Shown: piece by piece, positions 24,885-31,193 of the stretch | Layout: each line of letters starts with the position of its first letter | Numbering within the stretch: the first letter of the stretch is position 1 | From: Pseudobdellovibrionaceae bacterium | Lineage (GTDB): Bacteria; Bdellovibrionota; Bdellovibrionia; Bdellovibrionales; UBA1609 | Direction: 5' to 3' | Assembly: GCA_023954155.1 (NCBI GenBank) | Contig: JAMLIO010000001.1 | Coordinates: 372,001-436,000 of the forward strand | Length of the DNA: 64,000 nt | Position numbers and translations under genes: made by a program | Notes under the pieces: model-generated | What the model saw: only the letters and a program-made list of their open reading frames with translations | Databases searched by the model: none | What the model was told of the DNA's origin: nothing

Positions 24885-25815
24885 CCGTATTGTCTTTCTG
24901 TTAATAGTATTTGGTTTTGTAGGTTCGTATGCTCAGGTGGATGCTTTAAAGACAACCAGAGGACAGAAGTTTAAACTGCAAAACGAAATCAAAAACCTAA
25001 TCCGTAAAAGAAGTGAGTCCCAACGTAACATCCTTTATCTGGAATATGAAATTGAAGAAACCAAAGAGCGCATTAAAGAGAATCAAAAAAGAATTGAACA
25101 GATAGAGCAAAATATCAAAAAAAACTTAAAGACCTTTGTCGTTTCGCAGCTTCGTGAGACCAATAGTGATTTAAGCTTTAAGTCTAGAATCGAAGCGCAA
25201 ATCTATTTTAATTGGAAAAAGCAATCAGACCAGATCACTAAGTTTAAAAATGAGATGCAACTGGCTTTAGAAGACATGAACTTGGCAAAACGTGAGTTGC
25301 AACAGTTTATCGACACCAGTAATTCTTTAACTTTTAGAATAGAAAAAGAAATTGAAGCCCTCAACGAACAGCAAGTGGCTTTAAGGTATAAAGCGATCAG
25401 TGATGGTCCAGATTCCATCTTTTACGCTATGGCAGGAAGGTTGTTCTGGCCTGTGTCGCAGGCCAAATTGGTAGGGTCACGTGGATTTTATAAAGTACGC
25501 GGGGAACGCGTCTTTGATTACAACGAGGGTATGAAATTTCTAGCAGCAACAAATTCGTCTGTGTTTCCGATCTATCGTGGTCAAGTGGAAGCCATTTTAG
25601 ACATTGCAAACTTGGGCCCTTTAATTGTCGTTAAGCATACGGACAACATCAGGAGTTTTTATATTGGTGCTGTTCCTACTAAAAGTTTAATCATTGGTAG
25701 TAACGTAAGTCCTGATCAACAAATTGGTCTCGTCAAAGACACAGAATTGGAGCTAAAATTAAGATTCGATTCAGAATCTTTGGACCCTGTGCAATGGGTA
25801 AGACGGAGGAGATAA
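24871..25815 (+). CDS. EnvC-like coiled-coil protein with degenerate LytM domain
   Basis: A secreted protein: signal peptide (~1-21, ending GSYA), a long coiled coil (~30-175, many Glu/Lys/Gln heptads) and a C-terminal LytM/M23-like domain (~190-300). The expected zinc-ligand positions (H-x(3)-D and the final H-x-H) are replaced: the segment reads FDYNEGMKF, and no HxH follows. EnvC uses a similarly inactive LytM domain to switch on amidases under FtsEX control, and the gene lies directly behind ftsEX. The start is a TTG at 24871 with GGGAAG upstream, overlapping the ftsX stop by 14 bases. Confidence 0.85.
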   Translation: MKTSSRIVFLLIVFGFVGSYAQVDALKTTRGQKFKLQNEIKNLIRKRSESQRNILYLEYEIEETKERIKENQKRIEQIEQNIKKNLKTFVVSQLRETNSDLSFKSRIEAQIYFNWKKQSDQITKFKNEMQLALEDMNLAKRELQQFIDTSNSLTFRIEKEIEALNEQQVALRYKAISDGPDSIFYAMAGRLFWPVSQAKLVGSRGFYKVRGERVFDYNEGMKFLAATNSSVFPIYRGQVEAILDIANLGPLIVVKHTDNIRSFYIGAVPTKSLIIGSNVSPDQQIGLVKDTELELKLRFDSESLDPVQWVRRRR

Positions 25816-25817
25816 GC

Positions 25818-26981
25818 ATGAAGTCAAAAATGGGATTGCTAATATTAGGAGTAGTGTTGGGCATGGCAGTGAACCCGTTGTTGTCTTACTCTAGCCAAAG
25901 GTATGATAACCTGCGACTATTTTCTCGCGTATTCAATCTGATTGAGGGTAACTATGTGGATACTGTGGATGAAAAGAAACTGATCATCGGCAGTGTCAGG
26001 GGTTTATTAGGCGGGCTCGACCCGTATTCGGCTTATTTAGAAAAAGAGGACTTTAAGGACTTTCAATCAGAGACTTTGGGACGTTTTGGAGGTTTGGGCA
26101 TTGAGGTCACTCTTGACGAAGGCTTCTTAAAAATCATCAGCCCCATTGAAGACAGTCCTGCCGAAAAAGCAGGAATCAAATCAGGGGATAGGATCATCAC
26201 TATCAATGGGGAGTTAGTAAAAGGCTTAGACATTGTTGAGGCCAGCAAAAAGCTTCGCGGTAAAATTGGTACAGAGATTAACCTCACGGTAAAAAGAGAA
26301 GGCGAACAGCAGCTTCTTAATTTTAAAATCAAACGCGCAAGTATTACGATCAAATCTGTTAAAGGTAGGATCATTGATAAAGACAAGGGCGTACATTATG
26401 TACGGGTGAGCAGTTTTCTAGAAAAAACATCCAAAGATTTTACAAACTATATCACTAAGAGCTTACAAAAAAATCCAAACAGTTCATTCATCGTAGACCT
26501 AAGAGCCAATCCTGGAGGCCTGCTTAAGCAAGCCGTAGATATGGCAGATCTTTTCATCAATGAAGGGGTCATTGTTTCAACCATTGGGCGCAATAAAGAA
26601 CAAAAAAACGTGTTAAATGCCACAAAACAGAGCCAAATTCATGGTGACATCAACATGGTGATTTTGGTGGATGGAAACTCTGCCAGTGCCAGCGAAATTT
26701 TTGCGGCAGCAATGAAAGACCACAAGAAGGCCACACTTATGGGGGCAAAGACTTATGGAAAAGGTTCTGTACAGTCTGTGATTGCGCTTGAAAATGGCGA
26801 TGGGGTGAAGCTCACGATTGCCCGCTACTATTCACCCAACGGCAAAACTATAGATAAAAAAGGTGTTGAGCCCGACAAGGTTCTTAAAGAACAAGACAAA
26901 AAATTTGAACTTAAAGACATCCAAAACGACCCATGGGTAGTTGAGGCCCAAAAACATCTGACAAAAGATATTAAGTCGTAG
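25818..26981 (+). CDS. C-terminal processing peptidase (S41, CtpA/Prc type)
   Basis: A secreted or membrane-anchored serine protease of 387 residues with an N-terminal hydrophobic signal/anchor, a PDZ domain (~88-165; GLGIEVTLDEGFLKII, SPAEKAGIKSGD) and an S41 catalytic domain with Ser290 in NSASASEIFAAAM and Lys315/Gln319 in TYGKGSVQ. The ATG at 25818 follows GGAGGAG and comes two bases after the EnvC-like stop. The ftsEX-envC-ctp order, common in proteobacteria, suggests a role in maturing or degrading cell-wall hydrolases. Confidence 0.93.
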   Translation: MKSKMGLLILGVVLGMAVNPLLSYSSQRYDNLRLFSRVFNLIEGNYVDTVDEKKLIIGSVRGLLGGLDPYSAYLEKEDFKDFQSETLGRFGGLGIEVTLDEGFLKIISPIEDSPAEKAGIKSGDRIITINGELVKGLDIVEASKKLRGKIGTEINLTVKREGEQQLLNFKIKRASITIKSVKGRIIDKDKGVHYVRVSSFLEKTSKDFTNYITKSLQKNPNSSFIVDLRANPGGLLKQAVDMADLFINEGVIVSTIGRNKEQKNVLNATKQSQIHGDINMVILVDGNSASASEIFAAAMKDHKKATLMGAKTYGKGSVQSVIALENGDGVKLTIARYYSPNGKTIDKKGVEPDKVLKEQDKKFELKDIQNDPWVVEAQKHLTKDIKS

Positions 26982-27008
26982 AGTATTTGCAAGTGATCAA
27001 GAGAATAA

Positions 27009-27039
27009 AAAAAGGCCAAGTTCAATACTTGGCCTTTTT
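27009..27039. terminator. Bidirectional rho-independent terminator between ctp and tig
   Basis: A perfect 12-bp inverted repeat (27009-27020 with 27028-27039), loop TTCAATA. The stem has an A-run on the 5' side and a T-run on the 3' side, so it can stop transcription of ctp from the left and tig from the right. Confidence 0.92.
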
Positions 27040-27058
27040 ATTTGTTGTGAGTTAAAGT

Positions 27059-28369
27059 TTATTCTGCTGTTTTTGCAGGTACGCTTTTTACGTTGGCTTT
27101 GGCGATAACAAAGTCAATCACCTTAGTTTCAAGCAGTCTGTATCTTAAAGAATCCAGTTTTCCTGGTTCGTTATAAAACTTGCGTACTTCTTCCACAGGC
27201 ATTCCCGCACCTTGAGCAAGCTCGGCAAGTCGGTTTTCAACGTCTTTTACAGTGGGGATTAAGTTTTCTTTTTCAGCAATAGCATCAACAATGAAGGAAG
27301 ACTTGATGATGTCTGAAGCATTTTGTGTAAATTCGGCGTCCCATTTTTTTAGGTAATCGGTCACACCTTGATCGTCCATGCCCTGCTGCTTAAGAGTTTG
27401 AGTTGTATTTTGTTTTAGATTTTCTTTTTGTTCTAAAACTAAAGACTCAGGAGCATCAACGGGGTTGGCTTCAACCAGTTTCTTTAAAACCTCTTCTTGA
27501 AGCTTCTGTTCAAGACGAGAACTCTCGCTGCGTTCGATATCTTTTTTAATCTGTTGTTTTAAATCTTTAACAGTCTTGATTTTTTCATCACCTAAACTTT
27601 GAGCAAATTCATCTGTCAGTTCAGGCAGTGATTTTTTTAGAATTTTATTTAAAGTCACTTTAAAATCTACTTTGGCACCAGCAATTTCAGTAGCGTGGTA
27701 ATCTTCTGGGAAGGTCAAAGATACAGTCTTCTCGGATCCGATTGTCATACCAACAATGCCATCTTCAAATCCAGGGATGAAGGAGTTGCTGCCAATTTCA
27801 AGAATGAAGTTGTTCGCAGCGCCATTTGCCAGTGGACTTCCGTCACTTAAAAAACCTTCAAAGTTGATGTCAGTGAAATCACCAGATTGAACGGGACGCT
27901 CTTCTAAAAGAGGAGTTCTCTCTGCGCGTGAATTTAAGATTTGGTTGATCACATCGTCGATTCTGGATTCATCAACGGTGACTTCTTCTTTTTCGATCTC
28001 TAAGCCTTCATATTTTTTAAGATCAACCTCGGGGCGCACTTCTAATTCAGCAGTAAATGAAAAGCCCTTATCTTCTTCGATTTGATCTAGATCAATCTTT
28101 GGATAGTTGATGGGTTGAAGATTGTGGTCTTGTAATGCTGACATATAGTTGTCTTGAACTAGTTGCTCCACAACATTGCGTGTGGCCTGTTCTTTATACA
28201 TGCTCTTGATTTGGCTAAGAGGTGCTTTTCCTTTTCTGAAGCCCTTTAAAGTGACTTCGCCTCTAATCTTTTCAAATTGCTTTTCGAAAGCGGCTTTCAC
28301 GTTCTCTTGGTCAACAACAATTTTAAGTTTTCGCTTTAGGCCCTCAGAGGCTTCAATCGTAGACTTCAT
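27059..28369 (-). CDS. tig: Trigger factor, ribosome-bound chaperone
   Basis: A 436-residue trigger factor. The ribosome-docking signature GFRKGKAP is at ~43-50, followed by the FKBP-like PPIase domain (~155-245; GDFTDINFEGFLSDG, GFEDGIVGM) and the helical C-terminal chaperone arms. AGGAG six bases before the ATG. It is often a neighbour of clpP-clpX-lon in proteobacteria; here it sits about 7 kb away on the other strand, divergent from the ArsA-like pair. Confidence 0.96.
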   Translation of the reverse strand: MKSTIEASEGLKRKLKIVVDQENVKAAFEKQFEKIRGEVTLKGFRKGKAPLSQIKSMYKEQATRNVVEQLVQDNYMSALQDHNLQPINYPKIDLDQIEEDKGFSFTAELEVRPEVDLKKYEGLEIEKEEVTVDESRIDDVINQILNSRAERTPLLEERPVQSGDFTDINFEGFLSDGSPLANGAANNFILEIGSNSFIPGFEDGIVGMTIGSEKTVSLTFPEDYHATEIAGAKVDFKVTLNKILKKSLPELTDEFAQSLGDEKIKTVKDLKQQIKKDIERSESSRLEQKLQEEVLKKLVEANPVDAPESLVLEQKENLKQNTTQTLKQQGMDDQGVTDYLKKWDAEFTQNASDIIKSSFIVDAIAEKENLIPTVKDVENRLAELAQGAGMPVEEVRKFYNEPGKLDSLRYRLLETKVIDFVIAKANVKSVPAKTAE

Positions 28370-28482: not shown

Positions 28483-29367
28483 TTGAGTAATATGGGAAAA
28501 ATTCACTTTTTTACAGGCAAAGGCGGGGTGGGAAAGTCCACTCTAGCGCTCTCTAAGGCTTTACAGCTTGCAAGAGGCGGGCAGAAGACCCTTTTGGTGG
28601 AGTTTTCCCAGTTTAATACTATGAGTCGTCACCTGGGCCGAGGGGTGGGGTTTGTACCTGTGAAGTGGCAAGAGCACTTGGATGTGGCGTCGTGGACTGG
28701 GGAAGACTGCCTGCGGGAGTATGTGCGCCACTCGGTCAAAATTCGATTTATTTTTGACATGTTCTTTAAAGCCAAAGCCACCAATGCCTTGATCAAGGCG
28801 GCCCCCGCCTTAAAGGAAATTTCTTTTTTGGGCTACATCACCAGCCACCTACGAGGGGTGGAGCCTAGGCTGCATTATGATCATATTGTTGTTGATGCTC
28901 CTGCTACAGGGCACTTTATCAGTTGCCTGCAGGTGCCAAGAGCACTGCTTGAAATTGCCTCTGTGGGTCCTATGGGACAGCATTGTCGTGGCATCATTGA
29001 GGTGCTTAAAAATCCAGAGTGGGTCCATGTCTACACGGTATTTATGCCCGAGCCTTTGGTTCTCAATGAACAAAAAGAACTTCAGCACAAACTCCGAGAG
29101 CAGTTTCAAATTACCCCCAAAGTACTTTTAAATAGGTCGTTATACGGGAAGGGCATTCAAAAGATTGCGATCAAGACCAGTGATTTAGGGTTTGCCGAGG
29201 GGCAATTCATTGAAGTTCTAAAACAAAATTTAGAGTTAGAAACATCAATGGCGCAAAGTCACCTCTCTCAAAATTCCTTTCCTGAATCTTTTAAGTTGAA
29301 TTTTGTGGATGTGGCTGAAGAGCTCTCTGAAGAGCATTTATGGGATGTGAAACATGAGCGAGATTAA
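28483..29367 (+). CDS. ArsA/Get3-like ATPase, first of a pair
   Basis: A SIMIBI-class P-loop ATPase of 294 residues. The deviant Walker A TGKGGVGKST (near residue 12) has the signature lysine, and HIVVDAPATGH is the ArsA/Get3 switch-type motif. It has few cysteines and no CxxC or Cys triad for arsenite or zinc. The TTG at 28483 is taken as start because AGAAGGA lies 11 bases upstream; the ATG at 28492 (three codons later) is an alternative. It overlaps the next ATPase gene by 14 bases. Possible roles include membrane-protein targeting or assembly of a partner complex; the substrate is unknown. Confidence 0.85.
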   Translation: MSNMGKIHFFTGKGGVGKSTLALSKALQLARGGQKTLLVEFSQFNTMSRHLGRGVGFVPVKWQEHLDVASWTGEDCLREYVRHSVKIRFIFDMFFKAKATNALIKAAPALKEISFLGYITSHLRGVEPRLHYDHIVVDAPATGHFISCLQVPRALLEIASVGPMGQHCRGIIEVLKNPEWVHVYTVFMPEPLVLNEQKELQHKLREQFQITPKVLLNRSLYGKGIQKIAIKTSDLGFAEGQFIEVLKQNLELETSMAQSHLSQNSFPESFKLNFVDVAEELSEEHLWDVKHERD

Positions 29368-30355
29368 AGCCCACGTCATAGTTGGCGGAGGAGGCGTGGG
29401 CAAAACCACTCTTGTGACCAACCTCTCTTTGCATTCTGCTCTTAAGGGTCAAAGGACATTGGCGATGACTTTTGATCCTTCGTTGCGACTCAAGGATCTG
29501 CTTACGGAAGAGGTGACGGATCAGACACAAAACCTAGAGGTCTTTTTAATTGATCCTGCGCAAATATTTGAGCACCTCTTAGGGCAGATCCATCCCGAAG
29601 AGGCCAGAGCTTTTAAAAACAACAGGCTCTTTGGGTATCTGCTTGAGGGCATTGTGGGTTTACAAGAATTCACCTCACTTTACTATTTGGTTGAGATGAT
29701 GAAGTCACAAAAGTACGATGTGATTTATGTGGATACGCCACCTTTTCAAAATGCCTTAGAGTTCTTTTACGCCCCAGAAAAATTTAGAAAGCTCTTTGAG
29801 AGTAAGATATTGAGACTCTTTATCGAGTCTGAAAATGAAAACTTCATCACACATTTTATTAAATCTTCGAGCCGTATGGCCCTAAAGACTTTGCAAAGTT
29901 TAACGGGGCTAGAGTTTTTTAAACAACTCTTAGACTTTATACGTATTCTAGAAACTGTACGACCTACGGTACTAAACACTTTAAATGAAATAGAAAAAGG
30001 GTTTAAAACAGGCTCCGTTCTTGTGGATTATATCAGTGCCTATGGAATAGAAAATGTAATCCAAGCTGATGACTTTCTGTCTGAACTTAAAGGTATAGAT
30101 TTGCAGGTCAAACGTTATTACGTCAGTAAGTTTATGGGACGGGGATTGGGACACATCCTAGAGCGACAGGGTTTGGAAATGGCTGAGCCCTTACGTCAGT
30201 TTTTGCAAAAAAAGACGGCAGAGTCTCAGATCGTTGAAAAGCACCTGCAAGATTTGTCGAACAAGCATAAGGTGAGTATAATTAGAGTTCCATACTTTAA
30301 CTCAAGTATGAAACCTAAAGAGATCGCAAAGAAGTGGGATGAGCATACGGGGTAA
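29354..30355 (+). CDS. ArsA/Get3-like ATPase, second of a pair
   Basis: A 333-residue relative of the preceding protein. Its P-loop reads VGGGGVGKTT: the Walker lysine is kept, but the signature lysine of the deviant Walker A (K in KGGVGK) is glycine. VIYVDTPPF takes the place of the usual APTGH-like motif. The protein has no cysteine. Overlap with the first gene, plus this loss, suggests a heterodimer in which the first protein supplies the intermonomer lysine (inference). Its 3' end is within copy 1 of an approximately 80-base tandem duplication, and its stop falls on the copy junction. Confidence 0.84.
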   Translation: MSEIKAHVIVGGGGVGKTTLVTNLSLHSALKGQRTLAMTFDPSLRLKDLLTEEVTDQTQNLEVFLIDPAQIFEHLLGQIHPEEARAFKNNRLFGYLLEGIVGLQEFTSLYYLVEMMKSQKYDVIYVDTPPFQNALEFFYAPEKFRKLFESKILRLFIESENENFITHFIKSSSRMALKTLQSLTGLEFFKQLLDFIRILETVRPTVLNTLNEIEKGFKTGSVLVDYISAYGIENVIQADDFLSELKGIDLQVKRYYVSKFMGRGLGHILERQGLEMAEPLRQFLQKKTAESQIVEKHLQDLSNKHKVSIIRVPYFNSSMKPKEIAKKWDEHTG

Positions 30356-30430
30356 GTACAATGAGGTTTTATACTTTGCGCAAGTATGAGATCCAAAGAA
30401 ACTACGGAGAAGTGGGATGAGCACACAAGG
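30271..30430 (+). repeat. Imperfect tandem duplication of ~80 bases across a gene junction
   Basis: Copy 1 (30271-30350) and copy 2 (30351 to about 30428-30430) are adjacent and roughly three-quarters identical, including the shared AGAAGTGGGATGAGCA and the hairpin arms CATACTT/AAGTATG (30291-30310, and a weaker form at 30370-30388). Copy 1 encodes the C-terminus of the second ArsA-like protein; copy 2 is non-coding leader plus the start codon of the next gene. Confidence 0.85.
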
Positions 30431-31193
30431 GCTTAAATTCAGAATGGGCTTCACGACTTTATTTCGTGGATTCAAAGAGATATTCAGTGATCTTAAAATA
30501 TTTCTCTACACACTCATTCCTGTTTTGATCTCAGCTGTTGTAGTTTTTGTTTTGTTTAAATATGGGTGGGAACTTAGTTCGCAGTGGGCCGAGAGGATCA
30601 TCACCGACTATATTCCCAGTTATTTATTGAAGGCATCATGGGTTTCTAAGACCATCTATTGGATCATCAATGTGGTATTTAAATTTATGGTGATTCTAGT
30701 GCTGACGTACTTTAGTTTTATTTTCATCCAGTTGGTTTCTATTCCCTTTTACAGTTTGATCTGTGAGAGAATTTTATTTAAACGCGGGGTTTTTCCAGAC
30801 CGTCCCTTTAGAATTTCCACTTGGATCAGAGTCACCATAAGAATGTTTGTGGTTTCGATTGTCAGGATGTGTATCTTTCTTGTGATATGGATTTTAGTTT
30901 TTATTGTGTCCCTTATTCCTGGGTTGCAGTTTATAAGTATTTTTTATTCCGCACTTATGGTGGGGATGGATAGCCTAGATTACACAGTGGAAATTTACGA
31001 GATGTCTTTAGGGCGTCGGATTGGTTTGTATATTGAAAACTTTGCTTATTTCTCTGCGGTAGGTTTGGTTTTGCTTCCCTTCTTGCTAGTGCCAGGGCTA
31101 ATTTTATTGCTATTGCCAGTCACTGTGGTAGGAATGAGCGTACAATTTGCCGAAACCATGGGAAGGCAGGAATATGAAAAACTTATTGCATGA
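30417..31193 (+). CDS. EI24/CysZ-like membrane protein
   Basis: A 258-residue polytopic membrane protein with about five or six hydrophobic helices (~25-47, ~88-112, ~140-165, ~170-185, ~210-240). The pattern with long re-entrant hydrophobic segments and the central charged loop (CERILFKRG) fits the EI24 domain family, to which the sulfate transporter CysZ belongs. A sulfate role would fit glutathione synthesis downstream but is unproven. GGAG seven bases before the ATG; both lie inside copy 2 of the tandem duplication. It overlaps gshA by 20 bases. Confidence 0.82.
   Translation: MSTQGLKFRMGFTTLFRGFKEIFSDLKIFLYTLIPVLISAVVVFVLFKYGWELSSQWAERIITDYIPSYLLKASWVSKTIYWIINVVFKFMVILVLTYFSFIFIQLVSIPFYSLICERILFKRGVFPDRPFRISTWIRVTIRMFVVSIVRMCIFLVIWILVFIVSLIPGLQFISIFYSALMVGMDSLDYTVEIYEMSLGRRIGLYIENFAYFSAVGLVLLPFLLVPGLILLLLPVTVVGMSVQFAETMGRQEYEKLIA

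Follow-up and report, generated by a model that had tools for sequence, protein, structure and literature searches.

Two overlapping genes in a 64,000-nucleotide stretch of DNA from a Pseudobdellovibrionaceae bacterium (the whole stretch is called the window below) almost certainly encode a divergent homologue of the BagA/BagB-type ATPase pair. Their active sites are lopsided, and this lopsidedness is real, ancient and present in many bacteria. The best explanation overall, and a probable one, is a heterodimer of the BagAB type with its ATPase site in the pocket of subunit B and a Get3-like client cycle. The features of the locus are:

27059-28369, minus strand: trigger factor, divergent from A, a conserved neighbour in the order
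28483-29367, plus strand: subunit A, BagA-like Get3-fold ATPase, 294 aa from TTG
29354-29367, plus strand: overlap of the end of A and the start of B, 14 bases, read from the sequence
29354-30355, plus strand: subunit B, BagB-like Get3-fold ATPase, 333 aa
30417-31193, plus strand: EI24/CysZ-family membrane protein (PF07264, 5.9e-18)

The first-pass annotation had described both open reading frames, an overlap of exactly 14 bases, a divergent trigger factor and an EI24 gene encoded beside the pair, and the sequence bears it out on each point. Subunit A has an alternative start, an ATG at 28492, which would give 291 aa. The gap between trigger factor and A is 113 bp, and the EI24/CysZ gene begins 61 bp 3' of B. 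Translational coupling of A and B through the 14-base overlap is probable.

Both proteins match the Pfam ArsA_ATPase family (E = 1.3e-18 for A, 1.9e-18 for B). The NCBIfam models separate them: A scores 87.1 bits with BagA (E 1.4e-24) and gives E 0.16 with BagB, B scores 89.5 bits with BagB (E 2.3e-25) and gives 8.6e-4 with BagA, and all 53 members of each of the two alignments match their own Bag model. The best matches in a sequence search of the solved structures in the PDB are two different chains of one crystal from Mycobacterium tuberculosis (Mtb), Rv3679 for A (6bs3_A, 7.2e-17) and Rv3680 for B (6bs3_B, 1.2e-19). When the AlphaFold2 models were compared by Foldseek, 6bs3_B ranked first for B (pLDDT 85.4), and 6bs3_A ranked second for A (pLDDT 87.8), with a TMq of 0.78 that is the highest among the matches listed. 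Both models also match Get3 and TRC40 and have the Get3 fold. The Get3/ArsA fold assigned in the first-pass annotation is thus upheld both by Pfam ArsA_ATPase and by the Foldseek matches to BagA/Get3 and BagB. The reciprocal specificity for the Bag models, the matches to the 6bs3 chains, the folds of the models and the shared P-loop asymmetry described below together argue for a divergent BagA/BagB-type pair. The scores are far below the NCBIfam equivalog cut-offs, at 87.1 of 400 bits for A (BagA) and 89.5 of 521 bits for B (BagB); judged on sequence, the pair is a homologue of the BagAB type, and the Mtb proteins should not be regarded as its equivalogs. The asymmetric ATPase pair of the first-pass annotation is therefore real but not new, being of this already known type. 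The ArsA_ATPase scores are far beyond chance, and so is the P-loop asymmetry, which recurs in all intact homologues that were examined. Assignment to ParA/MinD was rejected, as the ArsA, Get3 and Bag models score far higher. A and B are the only clear ArsA-type ATPases of this genome; the remaining matches are short, cover the P-loop region and were taken to be putative ParA/MinD-like proteins.

Among 192 Bdellovibrionota genomes, 178 have a match to B, 177 a match to A, 175 both and 12 neither, counts that are approximate because A and B cross-match in the searches; the 5 discordant genomes have weak matches only. A lies directly 5' of B in 39 of 40 Bdellovibrionota loci drawn from 24 families, and is fused to it in the other. 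This natural fusion (L105:89-2704, minus strand) is a single frame of 871 aa in which A occupies residues 178-481 and B residues 521-845; the Walker lysine of the A part is replaced by Arg and the B part is intact. A profile search beyond Bdellovibrionota located the pair in Actinomycetota, Myxococcota, Acidobacteriota and others, with A adjoining B in most, and in all ten loci where B has no adjacent A there is an A elsewhere in the same genome (10/10). The search of genome contigs with the B profile yielded 80 loci; a scan of genome contigs using A alone gave no matches, and neither did a search of viral contigs. In six loci from Myxococcota/Deltaproteobacteria records (L121, L124, L132, L141, L182 and L186) bagB is apart from bagA, and these genomes contain several additional ArsA-type matches, so they may possess more complex subunit sets.

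In a midpoint-rooted tree, 126 distinct A sequences (support 1.0) and 138 distinct B sequences (0.84) form two separate clades, which makes the duplication an old one. A and B very probably form a heterodimer, to judge from the co-crystallised chains of the Mtb homologues (6bs3-6bs5), the one natural fusion and the co-occurrence of the two genes.

The P-loop of A, GKGGVGKS, contains the signature lysine (Lys13) and the Walker lysine (Lys18); its switch II reads DAPATGH, and Ser42 occupies the position of Get3 Asp57. In B the P-loop is GGGGVGKT, with Gly12 replacing the signature lysine and the Walker lysine kept as Lys17; B also keeps the equivalent of Get3 Asp57, Asp41 in TFDPSLRL, and the switch II motif DTPP. 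A signature lysine in A only, with a Walker lysine in both, is the pattern expected of BagA/BagB. These P-loops had been read correctly in the first-pass annotation, as had the absence of the Get3 zinc-site cysteines: the three cysteines of A (76, 148, 168) include no CXXC, and B has no cysteine at all. Strict membership of the Get3 family was rejected for lack of CXXC, and for the dispersal of the signature lysine, Walker lysine and Asp57, which do not occur together in one polypeptide.

Walker Lys17, Asp41, Pro42, Arg45 and DTPP are invariant in B homologues (138/138), the motif around Asp41 being TxDPxxRL. A signature lysine common among B homologues had been named beforehand as the observation that would speak against the asymmetric reading; when checked it was found in 0 of 138. 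Only the Bdellovibrionota part of that count, fetched by E-value, is free of bias, as some of the genome-contig loci were fetched by the motif G[STG]GGVGKTT and are biased against a signature lysine in B. All complete A sequences carry the signature lysine (136 of 136, one truncated row aside). Of these, 130 also keep the Walker lysine and six have replaced it, for which the tree requires four independent changes or more; in each of the six cases GxGGVGKT and T[IV]DPxxRL are intact in the B partner. Residues at the Asp57 position of A homologues include Gly, Glu, Asp, Asn and Ser.

The signature lysine of Get3, MinD and Soj reaches across the dimer into the nucleotide pocket of the partner. 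As it is present only in A and acts in trans, only the pocket of B would be able to receive it, and a single composite ATPase site, the B pocket with A Lys13 in trans, is fairly likely on the residue pattern. The B pocket would contribute Walker Lys17, Asp41 and the DTPP switch II, and would be completed in trans by Lys13 of A. The pocket of A, with no lysine from B and no catalytic Asp, would bind nucleotide for structure or regulation and be free to degenerate. Binding of ATP at the A-B interface would open and close the helical subdomains, as in Get3, letting the dimer take up a client, hydrophobic or membrane-bound, and then release it. One composite site in B would account for the evolutionary pattern, in which the pocket of A can decay but its signature lysine cannot, nor can the pocket of B. 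The residue pattern thus amounts to a sharp and cheap prediction of which lysine and which aspartate matter.

It is rather unlikely that both pockets hydrolyse ATP alternately at different rates, as has been proposed for the A1 and A2 halves of ArsA. The retention of the Walker lysine in most A homologues would suit such an alternation, but the pocket of A has no lysine in trans and, in most members, no catalytic Asp. In work by Whitaker et al. in 2020 the ATP-binding motifs of both Mtb subunits were reportedly needed in vivo, which would also suit alternating sites and implies some function for the A pocket, in Mtb at any rate. By analogy this suggests that the A pocket in Mtb still binds nucleotide in a structural or regulatory role.

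The first-pass annotation had proposed an obligate heterodimer with one regular and one altered site, a reading in which A would hold the working site and B would be a degenerate regulatory partner. The asymmetry and, very probably, the heterodimer survive; the assignment of the two sites is probably inverted, as Lys17 and Asp41 of B with Lys13 of A are able to form a complete site. The full deviant Walker A of A, as in Get3, and its Get3-like switch II speak for A as the regular site. That reading is nevertheless improbable: the signature lysine of Get3, MinD and Soj works in the partner's pocket, and the Asp57 position and Walker lysine are variable or repeatedly lost in A and invariant in B.

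The arrangement at the level of the order is ctpA, trigger factor (on the opposite strand), bagA, bagB, a TPR lipoprotein and EI24. The CtpA-type protease and trigger factor (25794-28369 in the window) are retained next to the pair in the majority of the order's families. The link to EI24 proposed in the first-pass annotation holds in part of the Bdellovibrionota, where 20 of the 40 loci sampled have EI24 close to the pair, but not beyond: among the 80 genome-contig loci it occurs in only four, all of them Bdellovibrionota or Oligoflexia records, and none was seen beside loci from other phyla. On this restricted linkage EI24 was rejected as a core partner outside Bdellovibrionota.

The TPR lipoprotein has about 350-390 aa and an N-terminal cysteine of the lipobox type; it is encoded between bagB and EI24 in most of the order (loci L068-L088). 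Its linkage is at least as wide as that of EI24: it takes in the family represented by L080-L082 and extends weakly to other families and some deltaproteobacteria, weak model scores (about 20-40 bits) being no more than suggestive. The model had one wrong member, a 134-aa non-TPR gene from L098, and the match to L098 is void. The window has no TPR lipoprotein gene in the interval from B to EI24, and searching the genome with a profile of it gave weak TPR-level matches only. The gap between bagB and EI24 (30371-30434) resembles the final 60 bases of bagB: of about 61 aligned columns 41 are identical, 16 of them consecutive. This would fit a duplication of the bagB end, at the position where relatives have the TPR lipoprotein gene.

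The recurrence of the TPR lipoprotein and the EI24 membrane protein as neighbours suggests an envelope role for the putative client, and an envelope protein or lipid is tentatively proposed. We know of no client for any BagAB-type pair. A bacterial factor for targeting tail-anchored proteins, in the strict Get3 sense, would be compatible with any model of the site and would be consistent with the fold matches to the Get3-client complexes 4xvu, 4xtr and 4xwo and with the EI24 membrane protein gene next door; it is nonetheless doubtful by comparison with Get3, as the CXXC zinc site is absent and the linkage of EI24 is restricted. EI24 is, to our knowledge, no relative of Get1/Get2. An arsenite efflux ATPase (ArsA), despite the Pfam ArsA_ATPase match, is rejected as next to inconceivable at 49 of 650 bits against the ArsA cut-off, with no cysteine in B and no arsenite genes in the neighbourhood that was examined.

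For this class of bacterial Get3-like machines as a whole, we lean slightly towards a scheme, drawn from residue patterns and gene order, in which the degenerate-Walker-A subunit B would be catalytic, the perfect-Walker-A subunit A would be its trans-activator, with its own pocket repeatedly lost, and the machine would be tied to an envelope TPR lipoprotein in Bdellovibrionota. BagAB-type pairs span several phyla and have been crystallised, and they affect stress phenotypes in mycobacteria; the linkage to the TPR lipoprotein and EI24 is a first lead to a client or pathway outside mycobacteria.

Comparison with named systems places the pair as follows. Get3d and All4481 (NosAFP) resemble A as bacterial Get3-fold ATPases with structural matches (3igf, 8egk), but each is a single protein and the scores are only 28.5 and 35.8 of 325 bits. 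ArsA likewise has two unequal ArsA-type ATPase domains, echoed by the A-B fusion in one relative; here, however, each half has its own gene and the complementary losses are fixed, B has no cysteine, scores are low and no ars genes were seen nearby. Get3/TRC40 shares the fold, the helical subdomain, the deviant Walker A (in A) and the Asp57-type DP motif (in B), but is a homodimer, whereas here the subunits have diverged, lack CXXC and divide the catalytic features between them. The closest likeness is to BagA/BagB of Mtb (Rv3679/Rv3680; Hu et al. 2019 J Bacteriol 201:e00159-19; Whitaker et al. 2020 J Bacteriol 202:e00202-20), which a paper title cited in PMC10597346 presents as two interacting ATPases. 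Their chains have been crystallised together (PDB 6bs3, 6bs4 and 6bs5). Identity is about 20%, A and B are shorter proteins, and the neighbours differ, trigger factor and EI24 being those of this genome. The genes are nonetheless adjacent and in identical order in both, A resembles BagA and B resembles BagB specifically, and the same P-loop asymmetry is found in the Mtb proteins as GKGGTGKS and GAGGVGKT.
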